From Sabellastarte sp. h YS-2021 (Eukaryota > Annelida > Polychaeta > Sabellida > Sabellidae): DNA of 64,000 nucleotides. The translations under genes were made by a program, and so were the position numbers. Positions 12,125 to 59,613 of the stretch are shown here, piece by piece. Each line of letters starts with the position of its first letter. The stretch's first letter is position 1. The notes beneath the pieces were generated by a model that saw nothing but the letters and a program-made list of their open reading frames with translations, was not told the origin of the DNA and ran no database searches. The DNA lies in contig OZ024933.1 of assembly GCA_964017235.1 (NCBI GenBank), positions 62,912,255-62,976,254 of the forward strand, in the 5' to 3' direction.

Positions 12125-12960
12125 CTTGTTAGCAACCTACAGTCCACATTTCTTTCCAGATTTCTTTCATATTTGGCAGGTGGCTTGGTATGCTAGAGGA
12201 CTCGCCACCCTATCTTTTTGGTAGGCTTTATGTCTAAATTAGGCCTGTGGTAGACAAAAATGTCTAAAATGTGGAGTATTGCTTGTTAGCGACCTACAGT
12301 CCACATTTCTTTCCAGATTTCTTTCATATTTGGCAGGTGGCTTGGTATGCTAGAGGACTCTCCACCCTATCTTTTTGGTAGGCTTTATGTCTAAATTAGG
12401 CCTGTGTTAGACAAAAATGTCTAAAATGTGGAGTATTGCTTGTTAGCGACCTACAGTCCACATTTCTTTCCAGATTTCTTTCATATTTGGCAGGTGGCTT
12501 GGTATGCTAGAGGACTCTCCACCCTATATTTTTGGTAGGGTTTATGTCTAAATTAGGCCTGTGGTAGACAAAAATGTCTAAAATGTGGAATATTGCTTGT
12601 TAGCCACCTACAGTCCACATTTCTTTCCAGATTTCTTTCATATTTGGCAGGTGGCTTGGTATGCTAGAGGACTCGCCACGCTATCTTTTTGGTAGGCTTT
12701 ATGTCTAAATTAGGCCTGTGGTAGACAAAAATGTCTAAAATGTGGAATATTGCTTGTTAGCGACCTACAGTCCACATTTCTTTCCAGATTTCTTTCATAT
12801 TTGGCAGGTGGCTTGGTATGCTAGAGGACTCACCACCCTATATTTTTGGTAGGGTTTATGTCTAAATTAGGCCTGTGGTAGACAAAAATGTCTAAAATGT
12901 GGAATATTGCTTGTTAGCGACCTATAGTCCACATTTCTTTCATATTTGGCAGGTGGCTTA
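12125..12960 (+). repeat. 157-bp satellite array in H1
   Basis: CTTGTTAGC recurs at 12125, 12282, 12439, 12596, 12753 and 12910, exactly 157 bp apart. Units contain GACCTACAGTCCACATTTC, TTGGCAGGTGGCTTGGTATG and TAAATTAGGCCTGTG. The last copy is internally deleted. Confidence 0.95.
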
Positions 12961-13850
12961 TCGCTTAAAAGTATTGCAGATAGCCAATTTTTCTCAAATA
13001 ACTCATTCACCTACTTTTGGGAGAGCTTTCACATGGTGAAGTTTCAGACCCGTAGATAATTACTCACCTACTCAAAATGAGTAAATGCGAATTATCTCTT
13101 AAAAGTATTGCAGATAGCCAATTTTTCTCAAATAACTCATTCACCTACTTTTGGAAGAGCTTTCACATGGTGAAGTTTCAGACCCATAGCTAATTACTCA
13201 CCTACTCAAAATGAGTAAATGCGAATTATCTCCAAACCTATTGCAGATAGCCAATTTTTATCAAATAACTCATTCATCTACTTTTGGGAGAGCTTTCACA
13301 TTGTGAAGTTTCAGACCCATAGCTAATTACTCACCTACTCAAAATGAGTAAATGCCTATTATCACTGAAAGTATTGCAGATAGCCAGTGTTTCTCAAATA
13401 ACTCATTCACCTACATTTTGGAGAGCTTTCACATGCTAAAGTTTTTTTTATGAATTTTTAAAATAATTTTTAATGCATTAAAATTAATGAAATCATGCAC
13501 TAAATCAATTATAACTTGAAAAGTATTGCATTTAGAGCACTTTGTTAAAATATGTTATTCAGCTACTTTTTCCATAGCTACAACATGGTGAGTAACTTGA
13601 GTGTCTATCTCAATAGCTAAGTGAGTAATAGCTATTTTTTACTTTTCACTAACTTCCATCATGAGTAGAATCACTTGTAACTTGAAAACTATTGCATTTA
13701 GAGAATTTTGTGCAAATCTGTTATTCACCTACTTTTGGGTCAGCTATAACATAGTAAAATTTCAGACCTCTAGCTCGTGGCATAGCTGAGTAATAGCTAC
13801 TTTTGCCTTTGCCGGTGGATACATCTTGCAGCTGGCCATAGATGCGTCCT
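12961..13850 (+). repeat. About 134-bp and 156-bp satellite units in H1
   Basis: From 12964 about four units of a 134-bp family (AAAAGTATTGCAGATAGCC, CTACTCAAAATGAGTAAATG). These are followed by two units of the related 156-bp family (AACTTGAAAA, TATTGCATTTAGAG, GAGTAATAGCTA). Confidence 0.9.
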
Positions 13851-17517: not shown

Positions 17518-17743
17518 TAAATGTAACTTTGAAAGAGTCAACAAAAAAAAGGCCCAATATAAGTTCCAGAGAGTAAAAGAAGTTCATGAAAATGATGGAC
17601 CAGTGTAAAATTGCTATGTAGTACCTTGTGAATTGTGTTGTGATTGTCTTCTTGCTGTCAGATCCTGTTGGTGTGTATGTTGTTTTTGTGTTTCTGTTTC
17701 ACTATAAGACAAATGGCAACCTTCTAAAATCATGTTTCATTGC

Positions 17744-17926
17744 GTTAATACATCTTACCTACCAGACGATAGCTATAGCCCGGCGCCAGCCGGTCCCGCC
17801 AAACGAAAGAAAAAGACGTCCCGGGTTTCACCCCCGGCAGGACCGGCACACTACAATCCACTCGCCAGGTGGCCTAGTTCCTGCCTCACTCGCCAGAGGG
17901 ACGTGACGTCATAGCATCTTTTTCGT
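17744..17926 (+). repeat. DIRS element 1 left inverted terminal repeat
   Basis: Matches the reverse complement of 28540-28720 almost base for base, including GTCCCGCCAAACGAAAGAAA, CCTGCCTCACTCGCC and GACGTCATAGCATC. The only clear difference is a 2-bp indel in the TACATCTTACC / TACCTTACC stretch. Confidence 0.95.
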
Positions 17927-18039
17927 TTGGCGCAATATTTAAAGTTGTGGATTTTTATCTGTGAACTCTTTAGTTTTTATATTGTGTTATATCTGTTTAA
18001 TTTGTGTCGGAAGTGTTGCCATTAGTTAACTGTTCTATC

Positions 18040-20004
18040 ATGGCATCTCCAGGACAGAAAAAGGGTGCGTGTGGCCATATTATGGCTTCATTTGACAAAC
18101 ATAGTAGGTGTGCGCGTTGTCGCGAGAAAGGACAGGGTGATGACCCTTGTGTTCAGAATCTGCAGTGTGACTTTTGCAGTGTCCTTACCCCGGAGCAAGT
18201 GCTCAAGTTAAGTACTCCTACCTATAAACTCAGAAAGGAAAAGGCTAAAGCAAAGGAAGTGTTAGTCGATCCGTCTTCTGTGGTAGTACTTGATGCCCAG
18301 CCAGAACAAGAACCTGCTGTATCTGTTTCTTCTGCTCCGGATTTGTCCCTTCCTGTGCCTCAGTTTAAGAAAGATCTTCAGGAACTGGACGAAAAGTGGG
18401 CCACTCGTATGGCCAGGCTTGAGGCGCTTATCACTTTAGGACATCGCTCCTCACCTTCTGTACAAAATCCAACATTTTCTCCGGTCAAAGTACCGGTCTC
18501 TCATGCTGCTCCAGCAGGTGCTCTTTCCCAGACACCCTTTTTTGTCTCTACTTCGGCTTCTTCCGGCCCAGCCGGTCCGGCTGTTGGCCCGGATGAGCCT
18601 AGAGATCAGGATTTTTCAATTGCTGACAGACAATCTCCACTTCAAAACCTCTACCCGGAAGCAGAACCTATGTTTAAACACCCTGCTCCGGTGGCTACTG
18701 TGTCGTCAGCTGCTATGTCTGCTTCCTCTCAAGCTGCATTTCAACAACCTTCTTCCGGCTCCGGGCCGGTCACCTTCCGCGATTTCAATCCTCAGGAAAC
18801 ATTTGAAGAGGGTGAGTTATCTGACGCAGAGGAATCCCCAGACTTAGAAACCTCAGACCCGGACCGGGTCCTCAGTGAAGATCAAAATTACCGCGAGACT
18901 GTGAGAGGCGTCCGCGCGTTCATGGGATGGACACACATTCCTGACCTGGAGTTTTCTCCTCAATCCCGCACTGATAATCCTTGGGCAGGTCACCGTTCTC
19001 AACCTGTGGGCAAGATTTCTGTGGATCTTCCTCCGGAAGATTGGTTGTGCCGAAAACTAGAGACTCTAAACCTTGTACTGATAGAAGGTTATCCTTCAAA
19101 ATCTAGTGATCCAGGTGGCCTGCATGTGGACCAATTCCTCAGACCCCCCAAATCCCAGAGCAGATGGTATGGGATACACCCGGCGGAGCCTACAGATCCA
19201 ACTAGGCCGGGTAAATCAGTGAATTCTTGGCCAAATGATGCGGCGAAGATAAATAGTTCATTCCCCAGGATTTCAACCATATCTTCTGCATCCCCTCAGC
19301 CTCCATCCCGCCCACTATCACAAGACACTATGCGTAAGTGGGAGAAAGCAGCAAAAGAGTCTTCATATATTTGCAACCAGTCAGCGGGGTTTAATCGCTG
19401 TATTACCAAAATACAGGATGCCTTCCAAGAACAATTGCATATTTTACAAAGTGAACTTAAGAAAGGCAAGTCTTCTGTCAAAGCTCAAGGTGCATTGGAT
19501 GAACTTTTGTATTTATCTTCATTTAACCAGAATGTCAGTTTCGCCATGGGTAAATCTCTACAACATTTGGCAGACTTTACATTTGTGCAGATGGCAAATT
19601 TGACCCTACTCCGTAGGGATTCATACTTGGAAGCTGTGAAACCGGGGATTAAACCAGATACGTTCAATTCCTTGAGAAATTGCCCCCTGAATGGATATGG
19701 GCTATTTCCAGATGCTGCTATTAGAAAAGCTGAGGATGAAATAAACCAATTAGAAGCTTCCCGACGTACTTCCCAGCCCGGCCCGGGCCGCGGGGGGTTC
19801 GCCGGTAGAGGCAGAAAACAGAGATACCAACCCTACAGTACTGGTTGGAAACCTCAAGACACTGCTAAAACAACTTCTCAAGCCGGAAAGGAACTACCAG
19901 CTTGGAAAGCGTTTGGTTCCCGCAATAGAGGCCGGGGCAGAGGCCGGGGTGGTCAACCCGGACGTGGTACCAAAATGGCTCATGAGAAGACACAGTATAA
20001 ATGA
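18040..20004 (+). CDS. gag: DIRS element 1 Gag
   Basis: Intact 654-codon frame from ATG 18040 (TCATCATGGCATC). An earlier in-frame GTG at 18004 is not needed. N-terminal cysteine/histidine cluster: CGH (about residues 11-13), CARC (about 24-27), C (about 37), CDFC (about 43-46), shared in layout with the second DIRS element. Then a long S/P/E-rich region, a conserved helical middle (about residues 430-560) and a basic glycine/arginine-rich tail (GRGGFAGRGRKQR, RNRGRGRGRGG) fit for nucleic-acid binding. The stop TGA at 20002-20004 is followed by CAATTA, which fits the CARYYA readthrough context, and the frame continues open downstream. Role inferred: structural protein of the replication particle. 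Confidence 0.9.
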   Translation: MASPGQKKGACGHIMASFDKHSRCARCREKGQGDDPCVQNLQCDFCSVLTPEQVLKLSTPTYKLRKEKAKAKEVLVDPSSVVVLDAQPEQEPAVSVSSAPDLSLPVPQFKKDLQELDEKWATRMARLEALITLGHRSSPSVQNPTFSPVKVPVSHAAPAGALSQTPFFVSTSASSGPAGPAVGPDEPRDQDFSIADRQSPLQNLYPEAEPMFKHPAPVATVSSAAMSASSQAAFQQPSSGSGPVTFRDFNPQETFEEGELSDAEESPDLETSDPDRVLSEDQNYRETVRGVRAFMGWTHIPDLEFSPQSRTDNPWAGHRSQPVGKISVDLPPEDWLCRKLETLNLVLIEGYPSKSSDPGGLHVDQFLRPPKSQSRWYGIHPAEPTDPTRPGKSVNSWPNDAAKINSSFPRISTISSASPQPPSRPLSQDTMRKWEKAAKESSYICNQSAGFNRCITKIQDAFQEQLHILQSELKKGKSSVKAQGALDELLYLSSFNQNVSFAMGKSLQHLADFTFVQMANLTLLRRDSYLEAVKPGIKPDTFNSLRNCPLNGYGLFPDAAIRKAEDEINQLEASRRTSQPGPGRGGFAGRGRKQRYQPYSTGWKPQDTAKTTSQAGKELPAWKAFGSRNRGRGRGRGGQPGRGTKMAHEKTQYK

Positions 20005-20313
20005 CAATTACTGCAAGTCAAGTCCGGTGCCGGTGGCCCGGCCAGTCAGTTCTGTACAAAGTGTCATAACAAGAAACTCTTTTGTATCTGTTCCAACAAA
20101 TGTTTCTTATCATGTTGTATGTCGTGTACCTACTGTAACAAGGTGGCAGTCGCAAAAGAAAGACGTAAGACCAAAATTAAAGATCAAAAGTCAAATAAAG
20201 TGTGTGAAAAGTGCTTCTTTTGTCGGTCACTTTGTTTCTGCTCCAAATGTTCCAAATGTCCCCAATGTTGCAAGTGTCCAACCAGTGGGGGGACGTCTTC
20301 AGAGTTTTTATGT
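19913..20313 (+). pseudogene. DIRS element 1 RT gene, 5' part (split by insertion)
   Basis: Frame +1 relative to gag, overlapping the last 92 nt of gag and the whole cysteine-rich module. It ends in GGRLQSFYV, the conserved motif that precedes the RT of DIRS elements; the second element has HGGRLQHFWQVWE at the same point. The Helentron-like element interrupts the codon after Y. The continuation resumes at 25120 with WEIWAHKG. There is no obvious independent start codon in good context, so initiation or frameshifting is unknown. Confidence 0.75.
20005..20313 (+). CDS. Cysteine-rich readthrough extension of Gag (interrupted)
   Basis: In frame with gag and directly after its UGA, 103 codons without a stop. 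From about 20053 it has 20 cysteines in about 87 codons, mostly as CxxC and CC pairs, for example FCTKCHNKKLFCICSNKC and CSKCSKCPQCCKC. This is strongly suggestive of a zinc-binding module. The module ends exactly at the codon before the Helentron-like insertion (20314). On the other side (25120) the same frame continues to the tyrosine recombinase. The overlapping frame also carries the start of the RT gene, so both frames appear to be coding here. I do not recognise the module as a named domain. Expression by readthrough is inferred. Confidence 0.6.
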
Positions 20314-20689
20314 CAGCTGACTTGTCAGTCAGCTGACATTATGTCGTCACTCTGCGGCGTGGGCGTACGCGTACGCGTCCGCGTACGCGTCCGCGTGAAC
20401 AACTTCTCCTCCAAAACTACAAGGCCTAGAGACGTGCTGTTTTTTTTAAAAGATACCTTATCTATCGAGGATGAAAAATTGTTCAAGGCATGCAAATCTG
20501 TCTGTTCGTCTGTTTGCTAGAGACATTACAAGGGGGGTACCCCCACCAAAAGTGTGAAAATTTCAACACTTAATCACAATTTTCTCAGTGACTATTGCAG
20601 GGATTTCTCTCATATCTTGCATATATGTACTAGGCCACAGGTAGATTCTCTTGTGTGAGTATGAGACCTGGATCTGTCTTACTTTTTTT

Positions 20690-23600
20690 TTAATAAATTT
20701 TTTTAATAATTTTTAATGCATTAAAATTCATGAAATCATGCACAAAATCATTTATAACTTGAAAAGTGTTGCATTTAGAGCATTTTGTTAAAATATGTTA
20801 TTCAGCTACTTTTTTCATAGCTACAATATGGTGAGTAAGTTGGGTGCCTGTCTCAATAGCTAAGTGAGTAATAGCTACTTTTGGGCTTTTCAGTAACTTC
20901 CATCATGAGTAAAATCACTTGTAACTTAAAAACTATTGCATTTAGAGAATTTCGTATAAATATGTTATTCAGCTACTTTTGGGTCAGCTATAACATAGTA
21001 AAATTTTAGACCTGTAGCTCATGGCATAGCTGAGTAATAGCTACTTTTAGGTTATCACTGTTGAGTAAATCGCTTATAACTTGAAAACTATTGCATTTAG
21101 AGAATTTCGTATAAATATGTTATTCAGCTACTTTTGGGTCAGCTATAACATAGTAAAATTTCAGACCTGTAGCTCATGGCATAGCTGAGTAATAGCTACT
21201 TTTAGGTTATCACTGTTGAGTAAATCGCTTATAACTTGGAAACTATTGCATTTAGAGTATTTTGTTTCAATATGTTATTCACCTATTTTGGGATCAGCTA
21301 TAACATAGTGAAGTTTCAGATCTGTGGCTCATTTCATAGCTGAGTAATAGCTACTTTGAAGTTCTCACTATTGAGTAAATCACTTGTAACTTAAAACCTA
21401 TTGCATTTAGAGAATTTCGTATAAATATGTTATTCAGCTACTTTTGGGTCAGCTATAACATAGTAAAATTTCAGACCTGTAGCTCATGGCATAGCTGAGT
21501 AATAGCTACTTTTAGGTCATCACTATTGAGTAAATCAGTTGTAACTTGAAAACTATTGCTTTAACAGTATTTTGCTTAAATATGTTGTTCACCTACTTTT
21601 GGGTCAGCTATAACATAGTAAAATTTCAGACCTGTAGCTCATTGCATAGCTGAGTAATAACTACTTTGAGGTTCTCACTATTGAGTAAATCAGTTGTAAT
21701 TGCAAAACTATTGCATTTAGAGAATTTCGTATAAATATGTTATTCAGCTACTTTTGGGCCAGCTATAACATAGTGAAATTTTAGATCTGTAGGTCATGGC
21801 ACAGCTGAGTAATAGCTACTTTGAAGTTCTCACTATTGAGTAAATCAGTTGTAATTGGAAAACTATTGCATTTACAGAATTTCGTATAAATATGTTATTC
21901 AGCTACTTTTGGGTCAGCTATAACATAGTAAAATTTCAGACCTGTAGCTCATGGCATAGCTGAGTAATAGCTACTTTTAGGTCATCACTATTGAGTAAAT
22001 CAGTTGTAACTTCAAAACTATTGCATTTACAGTATTTTGCTTAAATATGTTGTTCACCTACTTTTGGGTCAGCTATAACATAGTAAAATTTCAGACCTGT
22101 AGCTCATTGCATAGCTGAGTAATAACTACTTTGAGGTTCTCACTATTGAGTAAATCAGTTGTAATTGGAAAACTATTGCATTTACAGAATTTAGTATAAA
22201 TATGTTATTCAGCTACTTTTGGGCCAGCTATAACATAGTGAAATTTTAGATCTGTAGGTCATGGCACAGCTGAGTAATAGCTACTTTGAAGTTCTCACTA
22301 TTGAGTAAATCAGTTGTAATTGGAAAACTATTGCATTTACAGAATTTCGTATAAATATGTTATTCAGCTACTTTTGGGTCAGCTATAACATAGTAAAATT
22401 TCAGACCTGTAGCTCATGGCATAGCTGAGTAATAGCTACTTTGAGGTTCTCACTATTGAGTAAATCAGTTGTAACTTCAAAACTATTGCATTTACAGTAT
22501 TTTGCTTAAATATGTTGTTCACCTACTTTTGGGTCAGCTATAACATAGTAAAATTTCAGACCTGTAGCTCATTGCATAGCTGAGTAATAACTACTTTGAG
22601 GTTCTCACTATTGAGTAAATCAGTTGTAATTGCAAAACTATTGCATTTAGAGAATTTAGTATAAATATGTTATTCAGCTACTTTTGGGTCAGCTATAACA
22701 TAGTAAAATTTCAGACCTGTAGCTCATGGCATAGCTGAGTAATAGCTACTTTTAGGTCATCACTATTGAGTAAATCAGTTGTAACTTGAAAACTATTGCA
22801 TGTACAGTATTTTGCTTAAATATGTTGTTCACCTACTTTTGGGTCAGCTATAACATAGTAAAATTTCAGACCTGTAGCTCATGGCATAGCTGAGTAATAG
22901 CTACTTTGAGGTTCTCACTGTTGAGTAAATCGCTTATAACTTGGAAATTATTGCATTTAGAGTATTTTGTTTCAATATGTTATTCACCTATTTTGGGGTC
23001 AGCTATAACATAGTGAAGTTCCAGACCTGTGACTCATTGCATAGCTGAGTAATAGCTACTTTGAAGTTCTCAATGTTGAGCAAATCACTTATAATTTGAA
23101 AACTATTGCATTTAGAGAATTTAGTATAAATATGTTATTCAGCTACTTTTGGGTCAGCTATAACATAGTAAAATTTCAGACCTGTAGCTCATGGCATAGC
23201 TGAGTAATAGCTACTTTTAGGTTATCACTGTTGAGTAAATCACTTATAACTTGGAAACTATTGCATTTAGAGTATTTTGTTGCAATATGTTATTCACCTA
23301 TTTTGGGGTCAGCTATAACATAGTGAAGTTCCAGACCTGTGGCTCATTGCATAGCTGAGTAATAGCTACTTTGAAGTTCTCACTGTTGAGTAAATCAGTT
23401 GTAATTGGAAAACTATTGCCTTTACAGAAATTTGTGCAAATATGTTATTCAGCTACTTTTGGGTCAGCTATAACATAGTGAAATTACAGACCTGTAGCTC
23501 ATGGCACAACTGAGCAATAGCTATTCTCAGGCACTGACTGTTGAGTAAATCGGCTATAACTTGAAAAATATTGCATTTGGAGTATTTTGTTAAAATATAT

Positions 23601-24010
23601 TGTTCACCTACTTTTGGGTTAGCTATAACATAGTGAAATTACAGACCTATAGCTCATGGCATAGCGGAGCAATAGCTATTTTCAGGTTCTCACTATTGAG
23701 TAAATCAGTTGTAACTTGAAAACTATTGCATTTACAGTATTTTGCTTAAATATGTTGTTCACCTACTTTTAGGTCAGCTATAACAGAGCAAAAATGCAGA
23801 CATGTAGCTCATTGCATAGCTGTGTAATAGTTACTTTGAGGTTCTCACTCTTGAGTAAATCAGTAGTAACTTGAAAACTATTACATTTAGAGTATTTTGT
23901 TAAATATGTTTTTCACAGACGTTTTGGTCAGCTATAACATAGTGAAATTGCAGACCTCTATGTCATGGCATAGCTGAGCAATAGCTTCTTTCAGGTTCTC
24001 ACTGTTGAGT
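20690..24010 (+). repeat. 155-157-bp satellite array (about 21 units) in H2
   Basis: Units contain TTGAGTAAATC, AACTATTGCATTTAGAG, AATATGTTATTCAGCTACTT, GGGTCAGCTATAACATAGT and TAGCTGAGTAATAGCTAC. The adjacent-unit period is about 156 bp. GTATTTTGCTTAAATATG marks every third unit at 21567, 22032 and 22497, a 465-bp higher-order repeat. Confidence 0.95.
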
Positions 24011-24011
24011 A

Positions 24012-24835
24012 AATCATTGTATCCAACCTGTAGGAAATCATGGGCTGGGAATCTGTTAATATGGTCCGATTTGACCTTGGAACCCTCCTTCAAGGTCAAA
24101 TGAGGATAGCCAAACATAAAAGTGCTTATAACTCGCTTATTATTGGTCCTAGAGGTTTGGAATGAAAACCAACCTATAGAAAATCATGAGCTGGGAATTT
24201 TTTGGTGTGGTCGGATTTCACCTTGGACCCCTCCTTCAAGGTCAAATGAGGATAGCCAAACTTAAAAGTGCTTATAACTCGCTTATTATTGGTCCTAGAG
24301 GTTTGGAATGGAAAACTAACCTATAGAAAATCATGGGCTGGGAATCTTTTGGTGTGGTCAGATTTCACCTTAGACCCCTCCTTCCAGGTCAAACGAAGAT
24401 AGCCAAACTTAAAGTGCTTATAACTCGCGTATTATTGGTCTTGGAGGTTTGGGATGGTAAACCAACATATAGGAAATCATGGGCTGGGATTCTTTTGGTG
24501 TGGTCAGATTTGACCTGGGACCCCTCCTTCAAGGTCAATTGAGGATAGCCAAACTTACAATTGCTTAGAACTCCCTTATTATTGGTCCTACAGGTTTGGG
24601 ATGGTAAACAAGCTACAGGAAATCATGGGCTGGGAATTTTTTTGTGTGGTCGGATTTGACCTTGGACCCCTCCGTCAAGGTCAAACAAGGATAGCCAAAC
24701 TTAAAAAGTGCCTATGACTCACTTATTATTGGTCCGAGAGGTTTGGGATGGTAAACCATCCTAAATTCTTTGGCTGGGAATCTTTTGGTATGGTCAGATT
24801 TGACCTTTGGACCCCTTCTTCATGGTCGAACGAGG
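24012..24835 (+). repeat. 146-bp satellite array in H2
   Basis: AAATCATGGGCTGGGA-type blocks recur at 24035, 24181, 24328, 24474 and 24620 (146-147 bp apart), each followed by GACCCCTCCTTCAAGGTCAA and TATTATTGGTC. A two-copy remnant of the same family is at 34200-34430. Confidence 0.95.
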
Positions 24836-25119
24836 ATATTGCATTTATAGTATTTCTTTAAATATTTTTAACCTACTTTTTACACTTAAACAATTACCTT
24901 GTTACTTTATTTCATAATACCATTTGCAGGGCACAACTTTTTTGTCCTTTTTTTCTGTCAGCTTCGGAATATCTTTCGAACATGCTGTTCAGTTACCATT
25001 TACTGTATTTCTGTACAGCCATTTCCCTGATAATTATGCTTTCCTCTCATTATCACCATCACAAATCAAAAACATTCAGTCAGCTGACACAGTGCCCGTT
25101 CACGGGCACTCTCCTCTTG

Positions 25120-27127
25120 TTGGGAAATATGGGCTCACAAGGGTGCAAACCCAAAAGTAGTGTCCATATTAAAGGAGGGTTATGTTCTTCCCTTCAAAGT
25201 AAGACCTCCCTTAGTAAGGGATCCCCTGATAGTAAGTGGCTATGCAAACCCCATCAGAGACTCCCACTTGCAAGCAGCTGTACAAGCTCTGATCGAGAAA
25301 AAGGCAGTAGAGAGGGTCAGGGTTCAAACCTCACTAGCCTTTTTCAACAGACTGTTCATTGTCCCAAAGCCGAACCACAAGTGGCGGCCAATCTTGGATC
25401 TCAGTACTCTAAATCAGTTTTTATGCGTAAAAACATTCAAAATGGAGACTCCAGAGACAATCCGGACCTCTCTACAACAAGAGGAGTGGGTGACATCGCT
25501 AGAATTCAGCGACGCCTACTTCCACATCCCAATTCACTACACATCCCGAAAATTCCTCAGGTTCCACTTTCAGAACCAGTCGTACCAGTTTCGGGCACTT
25601 CCCTTTGGCCTGTCAACAGCTCCCATGGAGTTCACTGGTGTGGTCAAAGAGGTCAAGTTAATGGCTCAGTCACAGGGTATAAGAATCCACCAGTACCTAG
25701 ACGACTGGTTGATTCGAGCCCCTACCAAAGAATCTTGCCACCAGGGAACCCAATCCCTCCTAGCCCTCTGCCAGGAGTTGGGCTGGATGGTAAACATGCA
25801 AAAATCAGAACTGGAACCCCAACAAGTCTTCGACTTCGTAGGCTACCAGTACGACCTACTCAACGGAGTAGTCAGGCCTACTCAAAATCGTTGGGAAACC
25901 CTTCAACAGAAAATAACAGTGCTTTTACAGAACAGATCTTGCCGAGTGAGAACTTTCATGTCTCTTATAGGTCTTCTCACTGCGACAGAAAAACAGGTGA
26001 CCCTAGGCAGACTGCACATGAGACCTATTCAGTGGCACCTCAAGAAACACTGGAGAGTCCCAGAATCTCTGGAAAAGGAGATCCCAATTCCGAGGTCTCT
26101 CCATCAGTACCTGCAGTGGTGGACCCAAGAGGAAAATGTCCTAAAGGGTCAGCCCTTACACCCCCTGCGACACGCAGTTCAAATCTTTACAGACGCCTCA
26201 AAAGAAGGCTGGGGTGCTCACTTAGGCGACTTCACAGCAAGCGGTACTTGGTCAGTGCCCGAAAGCAAGTTGCACATAAACTTCTTAGAACTAAAAGCCG
26301 TGTTGTTAGCACTAAAAAGATTCCAACATTTAGTGCAAGGAAAGGTCGTCCTGATTGCCACAGACAACACCACGGTTGTGGCATACATCAACAAGGAAGG
26401 AGGTATGAGGTCAGGCTCACTCTGTGCCCTTCTTTGGCGGCTCCTATGTTGGTGCAGCCTCAATCAAATAGTACTGAAGGCCAGACACATTCCAGGCCGT
26501 CTGAATGTAATTGCAGACAAATTGTCTCGCCAAAGGCAGGTCATTCAGACGGAGTGGTCCCTCCATCAAGAGACCTTCGACCTCCTTTGTCAAACCTGGC
26601 ATTATCCCCGAGTGGACATGTTTGCAACAAGGTACAACTGCAAGCTAGTTCAATTTGTGTCCCCAATTCCAGACCCAAAGGCCTGGTCAGTGGATGCTCT
26701 GACATTGTCCTGGGAGGACCTGGACATGTACCTCTTCCCCCCAGTGTCTCTGATGGGGAAGGTGGTCAGCAAGCTGTCAGATCACTGGTATCGCAGAGCA
26801 ATCCTGATTGCCCCGGGATGGCCCAACATGCCTTGGTTTTGGGACCTAGTGGAACTATCTGCGAGGGTTCCTCTTTGTCTTCCACACCACCCAGATCTAG
26901 TGACCCAACCTTTCAACAAGGCACGTCACAGGGATCTGAGAAACCTAAATCTCCATGCCTGGCTCCTAGAGCCCAGACAATCAAGGAGCAGGGGTTCTCT
27001 AGCCCAGTGGCGTCAAGAATTGAGGCGCCTCAAAGACGTTCAACCAGAACAGTCTACGAAGCGAAGTGGGCCGTTTTTGTCAGATGGTGTGAAACAAGTC
27101 AGTTGGACTTCAGGAACCCATCTATAA
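25120..27127 (+). CDS. DIRS element 1 reverse transcriptase / RNase H / MT-like region
   Basis: Continuation of the split RT frame, open from 25088. RT fingers SRVxx-equivalent VPKPNHKWRPILDLSTLNQF, catalytic FSDAYFHIPI (near 25508), ALPFGLSTAP and YLDDW (25693-25707). RNase H follows with FTDASKEGWGAH (near 26187), ELKAV, ATDNTTVV and HIPG. The C-terminal block VDMFATRYN ... WEDLDMYLFPP ... LIAPGWPNMPWFWDL is the region DIRS elements carry where a Dam-like methyltransferase domain has been described. One oddity: FSDAYF where the second element has LKDAYF. The 5' end is cut off by the insertion, so the gene is probably inactive as it stands. Confidence 0.92.
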
Positions 27128-28029
27128 AACAAATAGCAGATTTCCTCCTGCACCTTTTCCAGGAGAAGAATCTCCAGCCCAGCACTATTGATGGTTACAG
27201 GTCAGCCATTGCAGACAAACTGGGAAATACCTCGGTTAATGTCGGCAAGGATGAAAATTTGACTAGACTGTTAGACAGTTTTCACAGAGATAGACCCAAA
27301 GGGCGCCGGGGGGTTCCTGCTTGGAACCTCTCCCTGGTTTTACACCAGCTTACAAAAGCGCCTTTTGAACCACTCAGAAAGGCTTCTCTGAAGCACCTTA
27401 CTTTCAAAACTGTTTTTCTCCTAGCCCTGGCTTCAGGAAAACGCAGGAGTGAGATTCACGCTTGGTTAAACAAAAATATCAGACACCAAGCTGACTGGTC
27501 CAAAGTTTCCCTCTACCCTTCACCAAGCTTCTTGGCGAAAAATCACTTGGCAAAAGAGGGACCAGAGTGCGTGGCCCCTGTGGTCATTCCAGCCTTAGCC
27601 CCCACTCTGGATAAGTCTTTAAAGGAAGACAGATCCCTTTGCCCCGTTCGGGCTCTTCGCTACTACCTGGACAAAACGCAGGACCTAAGAACGGGAAAGG
27701 AGTTAGTTTTTGTTTCATTCAAACAGGGTTTTAACAAGGACATCTCTCCTGCCACTATCTCGTCCTGGATCAAACAAACAGTAGTGTTGTGTTATGATCT
27801 CTCTGACCAAGATTCCTTGACCTTACATCAGGTTAAGGCCCATGATGTTAGGGCCTTTGCGGCCTCCAAAGCCTTTCAAGGTGGCATATCTCTGGACCAG
27901 ATCCTAGCAGCATGCCACTGGAAGTCCCACAACACCTTTACACAGTTTTACCTTAAGGATGTTGCCTGGGCAGATAAGGAGCTTTTTCACTTGGGTCCTG
28001 TGGTGGCTGCCCAACAAATCCACCACTAG
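25120..28029 (+). CDS. DIRS element 1 tyrosine recombinase frame
   Basis: Same frame as gag, open continuously over the RT gene and on to TAG at 28027. The recombinase proper begins about 27020 (APQRRSTRTVYEAKW). Catalytic residues visible: Arg in ASGKRRSEIH (about 27440), AHDVR (27838-27852), the His of CHWKSHNTF (about 27928) and the Tyr of FYLKDV (27949). It integrates the circular DNA copy. The upstream 600 codons overlap RT/RNase H and are S/P/R-rich with no domain. Because the frame joins gag through one UGA, YR may be made by readthrough. A separate internal start is the alternative. Confidence 0.9.
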   Translation: MGNMGSQGCKPKSSVHIKGGLCSSLQSKTSLSKGSPDSKWLCKPHQRLPLASSCTSSDREKGSREGQGSNLTSLFQQTVHCPKAEPQVAANLGSQYSKSVFMRKNIQNGDSRDNPDLSTTRGVGDIARIQRRLLPHPNSLHIPKIPQVPLSEPVVPVSGTSLWPVNSSHGVHWCGQRGQVNGSVTGYKNPPVPRRLVDSSPYQRILPPGNPIPPSPLPGVGLDGKHAKIRTGTPTSLRLRRLPVRPTQRSSQAYSKSLGNPSTENNSAFTEQILPSENFHVSYRSSHCDRKTGDPRQTAHETYSVAPQETLESPRISGKGDPNSEVSPSVPAVVDPRGKCPKGSALTPPATRSSNLYRRLKRRLGCSLRRLHSKRYLVSARKQVAHKLLRTKSRVVSTKKIPTFSARKGRPDCHRQHHGCGIHQQGRRYEVRLTLCPSLAAPMLVQPQSNSTEGQTHSRPSECNCRQIVSPKAGHSDGVVPPSRDLRPPLSNLALSPSGHVCNKVQLQASSICVPNSRPKGLVSGCSDIVLGGPGHVPLPPSVSDGEGGQQAVRSLVSQSNPDCPGMAQHALVLGPSGTICEGSSLSSTPPRSSDPTFQQGTSQGSEKPKSPCLAPRAQTIKEQGFSSPVASRIEAPQRRSTRTVYEAKWAVFVRWCETSQLDFRNPSIKQIADFLLHLFQEKNLQPSTIDGYRSAIADKLGNTSVNVGKDENLTRLLDSFHRDRPKGRRGVPAWNLSLVLHQLTKAPFEPLRKASLKHLTFKTVFLLALASGKRRSEIHAWLNKNIRHQADWSKVSLYPSPSFLAKNHLAKEGPECVAPVVIPALAPTLDKSLKEDRSLCPVRALRYYLDKTQDLRTGKELVFVSFKQGFNKDISPATISSWIKQTVVLCYDLSDQDSLTLHQVKAHDVRAFAASKAFQGGISLDQILAACHWKSHNTFTQFYLKDVAWADKELFHLGPVVAAQQIHH

Positions 28030-28387
28030 TCCCCTATGCTTCTTTGTATATAATTATATACAGTGTACATACTAGTTAGTTTTAGGTGTAGGCTCACTTT
28101 TAGCCTAGGCCTTGGCTTCTCAAAGTCTTTTACTTCAGAGTAATCCTCTGGGTATAGGACTTTCCCTACTCTTCCAGGTTAACCGTGGGAATCATTGACT
28201 TGAACTCTTACTCTCTTCCTCCCCTCAGAGCAGTCAAAAAGGGGGGGGGGGGGGGGGGGGCAGGTGAGTCTAGTTACCCTTGAGACTAACATGTCTCCTC
28301 AAAGGACTAGAACCTCACACCTAGGTATAATATAAGAGTTTCCCCAATCCTCAGAAGGCTGCCCTCCTTCCACTGGGTAGTTATTCT
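28030..28387. other. DIRS element 1 3' non-coding region
   Basis: Between the YR stop and the internal complementary region. Contains a 20-nt G run at 28241-28260. No coding signal. Confidence 0.7.
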
Positions 28388-28485
28388 AGCTATCGTCTGG
28401 TAGGTAAGATGTATTAACGCAATGAAATTGCAAATTTTAATTAGTAAATTAAATTTTTATTAGTTAATACCTTACCTACCAGACG
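28388..28485 (+). repeat. Internal complementary region of DIRS element 1
   Basis: 28388-28427 is the reverse complement of the left outer end (17735-17774). 28425-28485 is the reverse complement of the right outer end (28698-28758). They overlap at AAA. In DIRS replication models this region templates circle closure. The agreement also fixes both element borders. Confidence 0.95.
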
Positions 28486-28539
28486 GGAAATTCCCACCCG
28501 GCCTTCCCCGCTTCCAGCCTTCATCATTCAATCTTAGGG

Positions 28540-28720
28540 ACGAAAAAGATGCTATGACGTCACGTCCCTCTGGCGAGTGAGGCAGGAACTAGGCCACCTG
28601 GCGAGTGGATTGTAGTGTGCCGGTCCTGCCGGGGGTGAAACCCGGGACGTCTTTTTCTTTCGTTTGGCGGGACCGGCTGGCGCCGGGCTATAGCTATCGT
28701 CTGGTAGGTAAGGTATTAAC
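28540..28720 (+). repeat. DIRS element 1 right inverted terminal repeat
   Basis: Reverse complement of the left terminal repeat, from ACGAAAAAGATGC to AAGGTATTAAC. A unique right extension to 28758 is mirrored in the internal complementary region. Confidence 0.95.
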
Positions 28721-28886
28721 TAATAAAAATTTAATTTACTAATTAAAATTTGCAATTTTGGGCATATCTTCTCACTGTGGCCTAGTGCTTATATACAGAA
28801 GGACAATCATCGTATGGTGGATAAAAATAACACATATGTTTTGATTAAGAATGCAGAAATTTAACCCTCGGCCTCTTCCTTCAAGG

Positions 28887-32036: not shown

Positions 32037-33180
32037 GCATTAAAATTCATGAAATCATGCACTAAATCACTTATAACTTGAAAAGTGTTGCATTTAGAGC
32101 ATTTTGTTAAAATATGTTATTCAGCTACTTTTTTCATAGCTACAACATGGTGAGTAAGTTGGGTGTCTGTCTCAATAGCTAAGTGAGTAATAGCTACTTT
32201 TGGGCTTTTCAGTAACTTCCATCATGAGTAAAATCACTTGTAACTTGAAAACTATTGCATTTACAAAATTCTGTATAAATATGTTATTCAGCTACTTTTG
32301 GGTCAGCTATAACATAGTAAAATTTCAGACCTGTAGCTCATGGCATAGCTGAGTAATAGCTACTTTTAGGTTATCACTGTTGAGTAAATTACTTATAACT
32401 TCAAAAGTATTACATTTAGAGTATTTTGTTTCAATATGTTATCCACCTATTTCGGAGTCAGCTGTAACATAGTGAAGTTCCAGACCTGTGGCTCATTGCA
32501 TAGCTGAGTAATAGCTACTTTGAAGTTCACACTGTTGAGTAAATCAGTTGTAATTGGAAAACTATTGCATTTACAGAAATTTGTGTAAATATGTTATTGA
32601 GCTACATTTGGGTCAGCTATAACATAGTGAAATTACAGACCTGTAGCTCATGGCACCACTGAGCAATAGCTATTTTCAGGTACTGACTGTTGAGTAAATG
32701 ACTTGTAACTTGAAAAATATTGCATTTGGAGTATTTTGTTAAAATATGTTGTTCACCTACTTTTGGGTCAGCTATAACATCGTGAAATTACAGACTTATA
32801 GCTCATGGCATAGCTGAGCAATAGCTATTTTCAGGTTCTCACTATTGAGTAAATCAGTTGTAACTTGAAAACTATTGCATTTACAGTATTTTGCTTAAAT
32901 ATGTTGTTCACCTAATTTTGGGTCAGCTATAACATAGAAAAAATTCAGACATGTAGCTCATTGCATAGCTGAGTAATAGCTACTTTGAGGTTATCACTGT
33001 TGAGTAAATCAGTTATAACGTGAAAACTATTACATTTACAGTATTTTGTTTAAATATGTTATTCACATAATTTTTGGTCAGCTATAACAGAGTGAAATTG
33101 CAGACCTCTATGTCATGGCATAGCTGACCAATATCTACTTTCAGGTTCTCACTGTTGAGTAAATCATTGTATCCACTGGA
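32037..33180 (+). repeat. 155-160-bp satellite array in H3
   Basis: About seven diverged units of the family that fills H2 (GTCAGCTATAACATAGTG, CTCATTGCATAGCTGAG). Confidence 0.9.
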
Positions 33181-49264: not shown

Positions 49265-49279
49265 GGCCTAACGATAAGT

Positions 49280-53165: not shown

Positions 53166-53447
53166 GTTTTTTTATGACTTTTTAAAATAATTTTTTATTC
53201 ATTAAAAGTAATGAAATCATGCCCTAAATCAATTATAACTTGAAAAGTATTGCATTTAGAGCACTTTGTTAAAATATGTTATTCAGCTACTTTTTCAATA
53301 GCTACAGCATGGTGAGTAACTTGGGTGTCTATCTCAATAGCTAAGTGAGTAATAGCTACTTTTGGATTTTTCACTAACTTCCATCATGAGTAAAATCACT
53401 TGTAACTTGAAAACTGTTGTATTTACAGAATTTTATGCAAATATGTT
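53166..53447 (+). repeat. 156-bp family units before DIRS element 2
   Basis: Two units; the second is cut at GCAAATATGTT by the DIRS insertion and resumes at 58996 with ATTCATCTACTTTTGGGTC. Confidence 0.9.
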
Positions 53448-53465
53448 TTTTATTGCGTAAAATAG

Positions 53466-53645
53466 CCTTACCTTATCCTCACAAGTGCTTGGTTTGGTTT
53501 TGTGGAGCAAAAGCATCGACCGACGAGTCTTTTAATAAAGACTTTTCTTGTCGAGAAGTGACCCCTTTGTCTGCGAATATCCGCGCATGCGCCGACACCG
53601 TAGACGAGAGTGACTGTGTAGAAACTCTTCATTACATTTTTGGTC
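53466..53645 (+). repeat. DIRS element 2 left inverted terminal repeat
   Basis: Reverse complement of 58774-58952, including GAAGTGACCCCTTTGTCTGC and GCATGCGCCGACA. Few mismatches. Confidence 0.95.
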
Positions 53646-53680
53646 GTACTGGGAGCAGCATCGTTTCTTCTTCTATCATC

Positions 53681-55209
53681 ATGGCCGATTCGCAGGTCAA
53701 AAACTCGAAGGAACTTAAACGTGCACCAGGATGCGGACATCCTTTATTTGACTGGGATTGTCATCAATTCTGCTTTCCATGCAGGGAAAAAGGTCGTGGC
53801 AATGACGTTTGTGTGAAGAATAAAGAAGAAGATTGCTTTATTTGTCTACAATTCTCTGAGGATCAGAAGCGTAAACTGGTCCATAAGAGTAAAAGAAAAG
53901 AAAAATCTACGCCTAGCGTGGTGTCTCAAGAGATTGAAGATGCTTTACTGGGGGTGGAGTGCCACCAGAACCCAGTTTCTTCCAATCCACGACCTACAAC
54001 GGAGGGAACTACGACAGACCCCCTTCAAACCATTTTACAAAGATTAGATGATATGCAGGGCCAGTTAACTGCTCTTAAAGACAGAAACAGCGAGGTTTCT
54101 GTGTCTCTTCATTCTGAGGAAGGCGAAGCCTCAGACGAAGACTCCACCCTTCAAGAGTTAAACAACTCAAAGAAACGTGACAGATCGCCCTCACCTGATG
54201 ACATTGAAGACGACCCTTCCTACAAACCCTTGCTGCGGTGCGTTCTTTGTTACAACTCACTATTCCTGAGCAATTCTCCGAACAACCTTCCCGCATTTTT
54301 GGTTCTAGACAAAAAGACAAGCGAAAATCGTCTTTATTACCAATGGTCATGCCTCCTGTAGATGGAGTATTGGAGAGATGGGATTTTTATGAAAAGAAGT
54401 CCTCTGGAAACCCACAACAAGATCAACCTTACCTTCTAAAGACTAACCCTTTGAACTATGACAATTTCTTATATTTCACAAGGGCACCAATGAAGTTTTA
54501 TAAGTCCACGTCTGCGGACTTTTCATTCCAAGCTCCAAGATGCCAGGATTCTTTTCGCTCATCATTTCCTGGGCCTATTCCGTCTTCAGTCCGTATTCCC
54601 ATGAAGCAACATGTCCTGTTAGAAACAGTAAACAGGGAGCATGTACAGATCCTTTCGTATGTGCATTTCTTTCTCAATGCCATAGAAAAGACGGCCAATA
54701 ACCTGGAGTCCACCATGTTGACTGTAAAATCCTCCACAAAGGATCAAGCCATCATCAAAGAGTTAGAGACTATGCTGTCTGGCCTTCAGATTCAATTTAG
54801 TTGTATTGCTTCTATTGAAAAGGCTTTAGAAAACGTGACTGATAATTCGATTGCTGCATCTTGTAACTTGGAACTGGCACGAAGAGATACGGTACTCAAG
54901 AATCTTGCTCCCAACCTCAACGAGCACGATTTCAACAGACTAAGAAGGACGGGCTTCAAGTCTCATGATCTTTTTTGTCCAACTGTGTTAAATGAGGTTG
55001 AAAAGAAGATTCAAAAGTCTCCAAAAAGGCCTAGAACAGATCAAAAGTCTTCCTTTAGTTTCAAAAGACACTCTGATGACAGGAATACCAATAAACAGCA
55101 TTCCAACTACAACCAGAAGAGTTTTCGTGAGCAGAACTCATCTTCCTTCAAGAAACCAAACTTCCACTCTTCCCAGCCTTCCAGAAGAGGTGGAAGCAAG
55201 CGTAGGTGA
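53681..55209 (+). pseudogene. gag: DIRS element 2 Gag, one frameshift
   Basis: Starts at ATG 53681 (ATCATCATGGCC). The N-terminal cluster CGHPLFDWDCHQFCFPCREK plus a later C and DCFIC parallels element 1 Gag. Acidic/serine-rich region next. Near 54232 the frame shifts; the second frame (54238-55209) continues the conserved middle and a basic end, FKKPNFHSSQPSRRGGSKRR. Total about 509 codons, shorter than the 654 of element 1. The stop TGA (55207-55209) is followed by CTA, a known readthrough context, and the frame stays open into YR. The single indel probably makes this copy Gag-defective. Confidence 0.88.
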
Positions 55210-57277
55210 CTACAGCGTAGTTACTCACCATGGGGGCCGTTTGCAGCATTTTTGGCAGGTATGGGAGAATCTTTATTGTCATCCCAGAGTTGTGCAGGTC
55301 TTGAGGTGGGGTTACCGAATTCCTCTCCAATCGAATCCGCCCCTGTCTGTTTATCCCATAATGCAAAGCGGGTACGGAAGACAGGAAAAACATGGCTTCC
55401 TTCAAGATTGCGTAGTTCAAATGCTTCAAAAAGACGCAATTTACCATCTCAAGGACTGCACAACTCTAGGTTTCTCAAGCAGATTATTTCTTGTACCGAA
55501 ACCCGGCAAAAAATGGCGGCCAGTAATAGATCTCAGTGTTCTGAACAGCTACATGCATGTACCGACCTTCAAAATGGAAACTGCAGAAATTATAAGAAAT
55601 TCTCTGACAAAGAGCGAGTGGGTAGTGTCCATAGATTTAAAAGACGCGTACTTTCACGTGCCCATACATCCGGACTCTCAACACTTGCTACGCTTCCATG
55701 TAGACAACAGAACGTATCAGTTCAAAGCTCTCCCTTTCGGTTTAGCAACAGCACCACTAGAGTTCACGCGGATTGTAAAAGAAGCAAAACTCGTTCTTCA
55801 GTCTCGAGGAATTCGAGTTCACCAATACCTGGACGACTGGTTGTTAAGGGCAAGCTCCCAACACCAGTGCATGAGCCAGACAAAAGAACTTCTTCACACA
55901 ATCTAGGAATTAGGTTTCGTGATAAACTTCGAAAAATCAGAGCTCGTACCTACACAAAAAATCGACTTTCTGGGCTACCATTTCGATTTGGTACAAGGGA
56001 AGGTTTTTCCAACCCAAAAGAAGTTGAAAATTCTAGCAAAAGCTGTTCAGGACATGGAGGTCGTATCACTAACAACCCCAAGGTCGCTTATGTCCCTGAT
56101 AGGTGTACTAGCATCCCTAGAAAAGACAATACCAATGGGCAGGCTCCACATGCGTCCATTTCAGTGGTACCTGAAGACACATTGGCAATATCCCCAGTCT
56201 CTAGACCTGAAGATTCCTGTTTCAAATCTTCTGAAAAGTTATCTTCAGTGGTGGAAAGACCCCAAAAATCTAGAAAAGGGTTGTCCTTTACATCCTCAGG
56301 AACACAATACCCTTATTTTCACAGATGCGTCAAACCAGGGTTGGGGAGCTCATTTAGAAAATCTGACAGTCAGTGGCAATTGGACAGATCAGGAAAAATT
56401 GCTTCATATCAATGTCCTAGAGTTAAAGGCGGTATTTCTGGCCTTAAAAAACTTTCAAAACAGAATTCTAGACAAGAGGGTTCTCATAGCAACAGACAAC
56501 GCCACTGTAGTCAGTTATCTGAACAAACAAGGGGGAACACACTCATGGGACATGTGTCTCCTGGTTTGGCGCATCATGGCCTACTGCAATCCTCGAAACA
56601 TACTCATAAGAGCCAGACACATTCAGGGTTGCCTCAATGTCATAGCCGACAGTCTCTCCAGGAAGGACAAAATAATTCAGACAGAGTGGTCACTTCATCC
56701 TCAAATATTCTCCTTAATTTGCCAAATTTGGCACAAACCAATGGTAGACATGTTTGCCACCAAGATGAACCACAAACTTCCACTCTATGTTTCTCCAGTC
56801 CCAGATGCAGATGCACTGAACATAGATGCATTGAACATCTCTTGGGAGGGTCTGGACGGTTATGCCTATTGTCCTGTAGCTCTCATACCAAAGGTCATAC
56901 AGAAAATGAACACCTACAGGTGCAGAATGATAGTAGTAGCACCAGGGTGGCCCCTGATGCATTGGTTTTGGGATCTGGTGAATCTGTCAACCAAACCTCC
57001 ATTGCAGCTACCTCACTGGCCTCATCTGTTAAAACAGCCATTCAGTCACAAATACCATCAGAATCTGTTGTATCTGAATCTTCATGTTTGGCACCTAGAC
57101 ACCACTCAGAATCACTTGAATCATTCTCTGAGCAGGTGGCAGATCGAATTAAGGCACCTCAAAGACCCTCATCTAGAAGAGTGTACGAATCAAGGTGGTC
57201 CATTTTTGAACTCTGGTGCCAACAGAGTCAGGTGGTCAGCTCAGAGCCTACTATCTCAAAAATTGCAGATTTCTTGA
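54992..57277 (+). pseudogene. DIRS element 2 RT/RNase H/MT-like gene, one nonsense codon
   Basis: Overlaps the end of gag by 217 nt in the +1 frame. HGGRLQHFWQVWE precedes RT. RT: VPKPGKKWRPVIDLSVLNSY, IDLKDAYFHVPI, ALPFGLATAP, YLDDW (about 55825). TAG at 55904-55906 interrupts the frame where element 1 has a Gln codon. Then RNase H: FTDASNQGWGAH, ELKAV, ATDNATVV, HIQG. The last block, VDMFATKMNHKLPLYVSPVP ... APGWPLMHWFWDL, is the Dam/MT-like region of DIRS elements. Apart from the nonsense codon the frame is intact. Confidence 0.92.
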
Positions 57278-58164
57278 ACTATCTTTTCACTGTAAAAAAT
57301 CTCAAACCTGCTACTATTGCGGGCTACAGAACTGCTATTGCTGATCATTTAGGTCATTCTGGCCAAGAGGTGAGCAAGAGTCTTGACTTGAACAGGCTTA
57401 TTGCCAGCTTCTATAGAGATAAGCCTACTGCTAATAGGGGAATACCCTCATGGGATTTATCTTTGGTACTTTCAGCATTGACAAAGGCTCCTTTTGAACC
57501 ATTAAAAGATGCAAGTCTAAAGATTCTGACTTTTAAAACTGTCTTCTTGATGGCATTGGCATCTGGCAAAAGAAGGGGGGAGGTGCATTCTTGGACATAC
57601 TCCTCTCTTAGACACAAACCTCACTGGAAGGAGGTCACCATCTCTCCTTCTCCTGCTTTCCTTGCAAAGAATCAATTGGCATCAGATGGTCCAGACTTAT
57701 TAAGACCAGTAGTCATTCCAGCCTTAAAACCTTTCCTTAGCTCGGATTTGACTGAGGACATGACCTTATGTCCTGTCAGGGCACTTAGATACTATCTAGA
57801 CAGAACCAATGAGTTGAGGAGGGGAAAGAACCTCCTATTCATATCATTTAAGGAAGGCTTTGACAGAGATATCATGAGATCTACCATATCTTCCTGGATT
57901 AAACAAACTGTTTTACTAGCATATCAATCCTCTAAGGCTGATTCTCAGGATCTTCATATTAAGGCGCATGACATCCGATCCATGTCTGCATCTTTAGCTT
58001 TCAAGGGTGGGGCTTCGCTTGAGCAGATTTTAGGCTCCTGCTATTGGAAGAGTCACAACACCTTTACCACATTTTATTTGAAGGATGTAGCTTGGCAATC
58101 TCATGACCAGTCTGACTATAAATTAGGCCCAGTGGTCTCAGCTCAACATATTGTCAATGTTTAA
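55210..58164 (+). CDS. DIRS element 2 tyrosine recombinase frame
   Basis: Open for 984 codons directly after the gag UGA to TAA at 58162, overlapping the whole RT gene. The recombinase domain starts about 57160 (APQRPSSRRVYESRW). Catalytic set: Arg in ASGKRRGEVH, AHDIR, WKSHNTF and FYLKDV. Very similar to element 1 YR through the C-terminus (LGPVVSAQ). The overlap part is S/R/P-rich and without a domain. It is intact although gag and RT in the same copy are damaged. Confidence 0.9.
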   Translation, partial: LQRSYSPWGPFAAFLAGMGESLLSSQSCAGLEVGLPNSSPIESAPVCLSHNAKRVRKTGKTWLPSRLRSSNASKRRNLPSQGLHNSRFLKQIISCTETRQKMAASNRSQCSEQLHACTDLQNGNCRNYKKFSDKERVGSVHRFKRRVLSRAHTSGLSTLATLPCRQQNVSVQSSPFRFSNSTTRVHADCKRSKTRSSVSRNSSSPIPGRLVVKGKLPTPVHEPDKRTSSHNLGIRFRDKLRKIRARTYTKNRLSGLPFRFGTREGFSNPKEVENSSKSCSGHGGRITNNPKVAYVPDRCTSIPRKDNTNGQAPHASISVVPEDTLAISPVSRPEDSCFKSSEKLSSVVERPQKSRKGLSFTSSGTQYPYFHRCVKPGLGSSFRKSDSQWQLDRSGKIASYQCPRVKGGISGLKKLSKQNSRQEGSHSNRQRHCSQLSEQTRGNTLMGHVSPGLAHHGLLQSSKHTHKSQTHSGLPQCHSRQSLQEGQNNSDRVVTSSSNILLNLPNLAQTNGRHVCHQDEPQTSTLCFSSPRCRCTEHRCIEHLLGGSGRLCLLSCSSHTKGHTENEHLQVQNDSSSTRVAPDALVLGSGESVNQTSIAATSLASSVKTAIQSQIPSESVVSESSCLAPRHHSESLESFSEQVADRIKAPQRPSSRRVYESRWSIFELWCQQSQVVSSEPTISKIADFLNYLFTVKNLKPATIAGYRTAIADHLGHSGQEVSKSLDLNRLIASFYRDKPTANRGIPSWDLSLVLSALTKAPFEPLKDASLKILTFKTVFLMALASGKRRGEVHSWTYSSLRHKPHWKEVTISPSPAFLAKNQLASDGPDLLRPVVIPALKPFLSSDLTEDMTLCPVRALRYYLDRTNELRRGKNLLFISFKEGFDRDIMRSTISSWIKQTVLLAYQSSKADSQDLHIKAHDIRSMSASLAFKGGASLEQILGSCYWKSHNTFTTFYLKDVAWQSHDQSDYKLGPVVSAQHIVNV

Positions 58165-58627
58165 GTACGTCTTCATTTTACTTTATCATATACATATTCA
58201 TCGTTCTCCATACATACCAGTATTTTTACTGACATTTGTATTTTATTTTCTTTCCTTCAGATGGCTCCATAATCATCTGTAGTTAGGATTACAGCTCCAG
58301 CTCGGAGGCTTCTTCTTATAGAATGACGGCAGCCAGCCTGAGGGTATAGGAAGACTCCTCTGACCTTCACTGTTGACTAGTTAAGAAGACTTCATGATGT
58401 TTATTTTGCAACAATTGATGACATTTACAACTACATCAGCCACTGAAATTCAAGGTTAGCAAAGTTACTTATCATTATTGCTAAAGAAGTACTGTTTAAT
58501 CTGAGATGTGGCGTACTTAAGCTTATCTTATCCTCTTATCAAAGTGCTTTACATAGTGACCCCTTGTCTGACAATCATTTTACAGTGTGGTTACAACAAA
58601 TTCCCTCCACCTGTTATGGTTGCATTC
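58165..58627. other. DIRS element 2 3' non-coding region
   Basis: Between YR stop and internal complementary region, no coding signal. Confidence 0.7.
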
Positions 58628-58732
58628 AAGCACTTGTGAGGATAAGGTAAGGCTATTTTACGCAATAAAATGTAACAAATTTTATTGTAATTTAACTTTT
58701 TACAAGTTAAATACTTACCTTATCCTCACAAG
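58628..58732 (+). repeat. Internal complementary region of DIRS element 2
   Basis: 58628-58670 is the reverse complement of the left end (53448-53490). 58671-58732 is the reverse complement of the right end (58934-58995). Confidence 0.95.
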
Positions 58733-58773
58733 GATAAACCCACCCTACCTCCCCTCTAATTTGTTATCTTGGG

Positions 58774-58952
58774 GACCAAAAATATAATGAAGAGTTTCTA
58801 CACAGTCACTCTCGTCTACGCTGTCGGCGCATGCGCGGATATTCGCAGACAAAGGGGTCACTTCTCGACAAGAAAAGTCTTTATTAAAAGACTCGTCGGT
58901 CGATGCTTTTGCTCCACAAAACCAAACCAAGCACTTGTGAGGATAAGGTAAG
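58774..58952 (+). repeat. DIRS element 2 right inverted terminal repeat
   Basis: Reverse complement of 53466-53645. The open frames on both strands here mirror each other and are not genes. Confidence 0.95.
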
Positions 58953-58995
58953 TATTTAACTTGTAAAAAGTTAAATTACAATAAAATTTGTTACA

Positions 58996-59560: not shown

Positions 59561-59613
59561 GCCGGTGGATACATTTTGCATCTGGCCACAGAAGCGTCAT
59601 TGGTCTAGTTCTA

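Follow-up and report, generated by a model that had tools for sequence, protein, structure and literature searches.

A candidate UGA readthrough route from Gag to the tyrosine recombinase in DIRS1-like retrotransposons of Sabellastarte sp.

Introduction

How the tyrosine recombinase (YR) of a DIRS retrotransposon comes to be translated is a question raised by two DIRS1-like elements, here called element 1 and element 2, which lie within one 64-kb window (the whole stretch of DNA that was analysed, 64,000 nucleotides). Inverted terminal repeats, an internal complementary region, gag, a reverse transcriptase-RNase H (RT-RNase H) and an overlapping YR frame are shared with DIRS-1, Xenopus DIRS and others. 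A long overlap of pol and YR is given for half of 28 DIRS1-like elements in the available part of one survey (PMC3266345), and a zinc-ribbon N-terminus of YR, in another DIRS group, in the available part of a second study (PMC3537659). The accessible portions of the DIRS literature that we found handle YR as an open reading frame (ORF) of its own and do not state its translation route. A sequence-only reading of element 1 had proposed that gag and YR occupy a single frame interrupted by one leaky UGA, from which a Gag-YR product would be made by readthrough.

Results

Gag and YR of element 1 lie in the same frame

Element 1 comprises the following features.

17735..28758, + strand: DIRS1-like element 1, with terminal and internal repeats; insertion-free in 20 copies from the same genome
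17754..17926, + strand: left inverted terminal repeat (partner 28540-28712; 173 bp, 100%)
18040..20004, + strand: gag ORF, 654 codons, ending TAT AAA TGA; relatives found by protein search
19754..20320, + strand: stop-to-stop RT frame (+1 to gag) in its upstream part, which overlaps the end of gag
20002..20004, + strand: gag UGA, the proposed readthrough codon; DNA read directly
20005..20010, + strand: CAATTA, a type I (CARYYA) readthrough context; ARYYA part deduced for 123 of 126 relatives' models
20005..20309, + strand: cysteine-rich extension in the gag/YR frame, ahead of the RT overlap; in-frame ATGs begin at 20119
about 20310..25121, no strand: insertion that none of the 20 fetched copies has, with repeated units at 20745-24021
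25091..27127, + strand: RT-RNase H, shifted +1 from the gag/YR frame (Pfam RVT_1, 1.1e-20; RT_RNaseH, 1.5e-6)
25120..28029, + strand: gag/YR frame, overlapping RT and ending in the YR stop TAG, from frame analysis
27016..28026, + strand: tyrosine recombinase domain (Pfam Phage_integrase, 7.3e-5, under the cut-off); 61% identical to that of element 2
28387..28485, + strand: internal complementary region, with arms of 41 and 61 nt that overlap by 3 nt

Both arms of the internal complementary region matched the termini at 100%. RVT_1 and RT_RNaseH scored above the Pfam cut-off in both elements; Pfam gave no match for the gag or the cysteine-rich segment of element 1, and a general Pfam scan gave no methyltransferase match in the region after RNase H.

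Direct reading of the DNA located the gag stop TGA at 20002-20004 and, immediately after it, CAATTA at 20005-20010, as had been described. The frame past the stop was open over the 103 codons to 20313, of which the final one or two fall in inserted DNA, and further. The insertion is a multiple of 3, as claimed, and its length had to be corrected from 4806 to 4,812 bp by comparison with uninterrupted copies, three of which showed the junction GAG-TTTTT-GGG. Past the insertion the gag/YR frame resumes in phase, and its next stop is the YR TAG at 28027-28029. The RT frame itself contains no stop in the roughly 250 nt that precede the gag stop.

The 4,812-bp insertion sits in a run of T of element 1, and its repeated units at 20745-24021, with a step of about 155 bp, resemble the window stretches 32063-33171, 49273-51009 and 58984-60128. 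Another repeated unit, with a step of about 133 bp, is common to 51161-53169, 62502-64000, 33315-34205 and 12958-13444.

Uninterrupted copies occur in the genome

The genome (1.786 Gb, 647 contigs) was searched, giving 2,241 candidate places, from which the best 40 were scored and 20 of those fetched. Each of these best 40 aligned over 610 or more of the 614 bases with a rounded identity of 100%, which indicates that part of the element 1 family moved recently. An uninterrupted copy with gag and YR in one frame and the UGA as sole separator had been predicted, and such copies are real: in nine of the 20 fetched from the best 40 of 2,241 places, the gag TGA was the only stop from the gag ATG to the YR stop, located 3,213 nt before the latter. 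The RT frame was likewise open in seven of these nine. The remaining 11 copies carried indels, one extra stop or a truncation and did not show the clean arrangement. TGA CAATTA was present in 19 copies and TTA CAATTA in one; since the query used to choose the copies itself includes the site, this count says little on conservation. In one fetched sequence (L020, 37-766) a second DIRS 5' end, consisting of a terminus and a gag start in opposite orientation, adjoins the copy.

The gag/YR frame avoids stops across the RT overlap

Synonymous-codon shuffling of 570 RT codons was performed for five of the 20 copies (L012, L014, L020, L021 and L024), with 5,000 shuffles per copy. Over RT, the gag/YR frame of element 1 contained 0 stops against a mean of about 19 expected and a shuffle minimum of 6-9, from which it follows that this frame is kept open. 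In the two RT segments of element 2, 0 stops were observed where 9.8 (minimum 1) and 16.3 (minimum 6) were expected. Judging by these codon choices, ribosomes evidently pass the RT region in the gag/YR frame. The third frame over RT showed 46-47 stops compared to 35-36 expected, at the top of the shuffled range, an excess without explanation.

The frame relation recurs in element 2

Element 2 was annotated as follows.

53448..58995, + strand: DIRS1-like element 2, with inverted terminal repeats at 53467-53645 and 58774-58952 (98.9%) and an internal complementary region at 58627-58732
54208..55209, + strand: C-terminal part of gag, ending in TGA (55207-55209), then CTA CAG
54992..57277, + strand: RT/RNase H frame (+1), with one stop, TAG 55904-55906
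55210..58164, + strand: gag/YR frame, 984 codons open straight after the TGA, to the YR stop

Its inverted terminal repeats measure 179 bp (98.9%), and the arms of its internal complementary region, of 44 and 62 nt, match both termini at 100%. Element 2 is a broken copy: gag is split over two frames (N-terminal part 53411-54361, C-terminal part 54208-55209) and RT carries one stop. The relation of gag, TGA and YR frame is the same as in element 1. The YR of element 2 gave no Pfam match and is 61% identical to that of element 1. The gag end reads AGG TGA CTA CAG, and in the YR frame an ATG, flanked by G at -3 and +4, lies at 55261. Element 2 is without the cysteine-rich spacer; its RT motif GGRL begins 22 nt past the gag stop, versus about 283 nt in element 1.

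The site is conserved in the RT-frame proteins of relatives

Relatives were taken as 358 predicted proteins among the matches listed of three protein searches. The stop and the C after it were read as DNA in elements 1 and 2 only, and in relatives the site was read via protein models: the RT-frame residues N-D-N/S-Y/H/Q correspond, by the +1 shift, to (Y)GA (Y)AR YYA in the gag/YR frame, a protein reading which on its own cannot tell the T of the stop, or the C after it, from the T/C alternatives. The pattern used to locate the site tolerated two substitutions and is thus biased towards similar sites. An RT start motif was found in 177 models among the matches listed. In 126 of them the site was present, 92-125 residues upstream of that motif and mostly at 96 or 102. 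It was not found in the other 51, 50 of which have at most 94 upstream residues, too few or barely too few, and one of which (P0136) starts downstream of the site. All but three of the 126 models (P0140, P0163 and P0219), i.e., 123 among the matches listed, fitted (Y)GA(Y)ARYYA.

In a set of 21 representatives whose flanks are less than 50% identical, the six site columns were I in 76%, N in 100%, D in 95%, N in 95%, Y in 71% (the rest Q or H) and C in 95%, compared to 19-50% for the flanking columns, one of them at 74%. The protein-readable part of CARYYA is thus kept in nearly all of the 21. The Y/H/Q and N/S interchanges are the freedoms that CARYYA leaves and, read as protein conservation, would make no obvious sense. 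The conservation check suggested by the sequence-only reading came out in favour for frame identity with YR, in natural copies and in element 2, and for the protein-readable part of CARYYA (123 of 126). In element 2 the stop is followed by CTA; from this UGA CUA it follows that CARYYA is not universal. Scans of viral and prokaryotic contig collections, one of them by the YR frame, detected no relatives.

Predicted proteins on the gag side and the YR side of the stop

Among the best 120 of 260 gag matches, C-termini were YK in 69, FK in seven and QK in three; the other 41 of these 120 end otherwise. We paired the gag C-termini with RT-frame peptides through the codons in which they overlap. At zero shift, 12-17 residues agreed for 18 of the 120 listed gag models, placing the gag stop at N-D, and control shifts of 1 to 3 codons gave at most 7. 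An RT-frame partner of at least 12 residues was absent for the other 102 listed. Many of the models that lack a partner or end otherwise look partial or spliced. Since TGA is the sole stop among YGA, the pairing places TGA in the family of element 1 as well as in two other groups, whose partners are P0057 and P0236.

Past the stop, the gag/YR frame opens with the cysteine-rich segment, which is kept in the YR-frame proteins of relatives (P0054, P0069, P0112 and others). In two gag models the stop position is occupied by a sense residue, followed by QLL and then the cysteine-rich segment: QYK-W-QLL in P0255 and NPYK-G-QLL in P0264. Both are known as gene models and not as DNA, and the W or G could therefore be a modelled splice. 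In P0255 the cysteine-rich segment is free of Met, the first one coming after it, and the 63 residues of P0264 include none. Conservation thus does not extend to the first AUG, an argument against initiating YR separately. When the extensions of P0255 and P0264 were compared with RT-frame peptides, overlap runs did not exceed 6, whereas the comparison of element 1 with its own family gave 102; the partner may be missing from the compared peptides, or the models may be imperfect.

Discussion

The shared frame in natural copies, its recurrence in element 2 and the kept site all support the interpretation that YR would be made as a Gag-YR readthrough product. We consider it probable that readthrough of the UGA, yielding a Gag-Cys-YR protein, is the best explanation of this arrangement, and UGA readthrough in a type I context would be its simplest account. 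Most ribosomes would terminate at the gag UGA and release Gag. A minority would decode the UGA as an amino acid, given the leaky context (AAA UGA CAAUUA in element 1, UGA CUA in element 2), and would go on in frame through the cysteine-rich, zinc-binding-like segment and the second frame of the RT region to the tyrosine recombinase. Uninterrupted copies of element 1 would yield a Gag-Cys-YR protein about 1,725 residues long (654 + 1 + 1,070). Readthrough would set a low ratio of YR to Gag, and the recombinase could be carried into Gag particles. The RT, in the +1 frame, may be reached by a frameshift in the gag overlap, by a +1 shift at the stop or by reinitiation. In both elements RT is exactly +1 and its frame runs uninterrupted past the gag stop, and for this reason the UGA may be imagined as a two-way recoding node, at which zero-frame decoding would give Gag-YR and a +1 shift at AAA-UGA would give Gag-Pol; we regard this extension as tentative and rather unlikely.

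Leaky scanning and splicing were set aside on account of the number of ATGs in gag and of the frame kept open across RT. Ribosomes might instead start YR anew at an AUG past the gag stop, through reinitiation or internal entry, with the shared frame and the leaky-looking context going unused. ATGs are available in the YR frame at 20119 in element 1 and at 55261 in element 2 (the latter with G at -3 and +4), and predicted YR-frame proteins of relatives begin at such ATGs (P0006, P0054, P0069 and P0112). These starts, however, vary among families, several falling within the cysteine-rich segment from which Met is absent in P0255, as it is from the 63 residues of P0264. Moreover, ribosomes that merely scan are unlikely to arrive at the YR ATG, given the 28 ATGs in the element 1 gag ORF (all frames, start included), and the conserved site would be left without explanation. 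We judge separate translation improbable.

Smaller still is the chance we give to a reading in which the conserved residues were selected as part of an RT-frame Pol, the TGA being an ordinary terminator and YR being expressed via splicing or another frameshift. The conserved block is indeed read in the RT frame, which is open upstream of the element 1 stop, and some models (P0007 and P0118) join RT-frame and YR-frame parts as if spliced. Selection on Pol, however, does not sit well with residues that interchange (Y/H/Q and N/S) between neighbours that vary on either side, nor with a gag/YR-frame side that is conserved as well, and removal of RT by splicing needs no open gag/YR frame across RT. 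Hepatitis delta virus edits its RNA at a UAG, and an editing of the gag UGA to UGG would agree with the W of P0255, though this is a genome-derived model; editing, however, would have no need of CARYYA, and we hold it to be extremely unlikely.

In the available parts of the cited studies, CARYYA after the UGA of OPRL1 gave about 15% readthrough, with UGA and UAG similar (PMC4132726), and CARYYA is described as working on UGA too, natural cases being generally UAG (PMC3542737). Element 1 has the CARYYA after its stop and the open conserved frame beyond it, and lacks the UAG. The tobamovirus type I signal (UAG CAR YYA) has the same CAAUUA after the stop and an A before it, as A-UAG-CAA-UUA (PMC3542737, in the part available), and differs in using UAG where element 1 uses UGA. 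As in type I, folding of the sequence that follows the element 1 stop gave no stable 3' structure (z -0.49), nor was one found in the 120 nt past the stop of element 2 (z +1.15). Unlike type I cases, element 1 is a retrotransposon, and its extension is a recombinase reached via a region that codes in another frame. Element 2 shares UGA CUA (55207-55212) with type II, defined as UGA followed by CUA or CGG, which is the other published leaky context (PMC3542737, in the part available) and is found in alphaviruses and, as UGA CUAG, in OPRL1 and MDH1. Element 2 departs from type II in two ways: it has CUAC and not CUAG, and folding of those 120 nt gave no stable stem-loop, whereas type II UGA-CUA cases, in the accessible part of the literature, often have a 3' structure.

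Gammaretroviruses and Candida Tca2 likewise have one stop between Gag and a same-frame enzyme, which there is Pol, with a pseudoknot or a signal left unresolved, and here is YR, Pol being in the +1 frame (PMC3542737; PMC2194720, both as far as available). Readthrough of a Gag stop into Pol is thus already known in retroelements. For the recombinase of a DIRS element we found no report in the accessible literature, in agreement with the sequence-only reading, which knew of none; the main DIRS reviews lay outside the scope of this search, so that absence is unproven.

If true, a Gag-YR readthrough product would explain why the YR frame stays open through RT and would give DIRS elements a stoichiometry rule like that of Gag-Pol. 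The two-way node, should it prove true, would mean that a single codon determines how much Gag, integrating enzyme and polymerase DIRS elements make relative to one another. Gag-YR readthrough would also mean that one large genome holds many natural candidate UGA-CARYYA sites.
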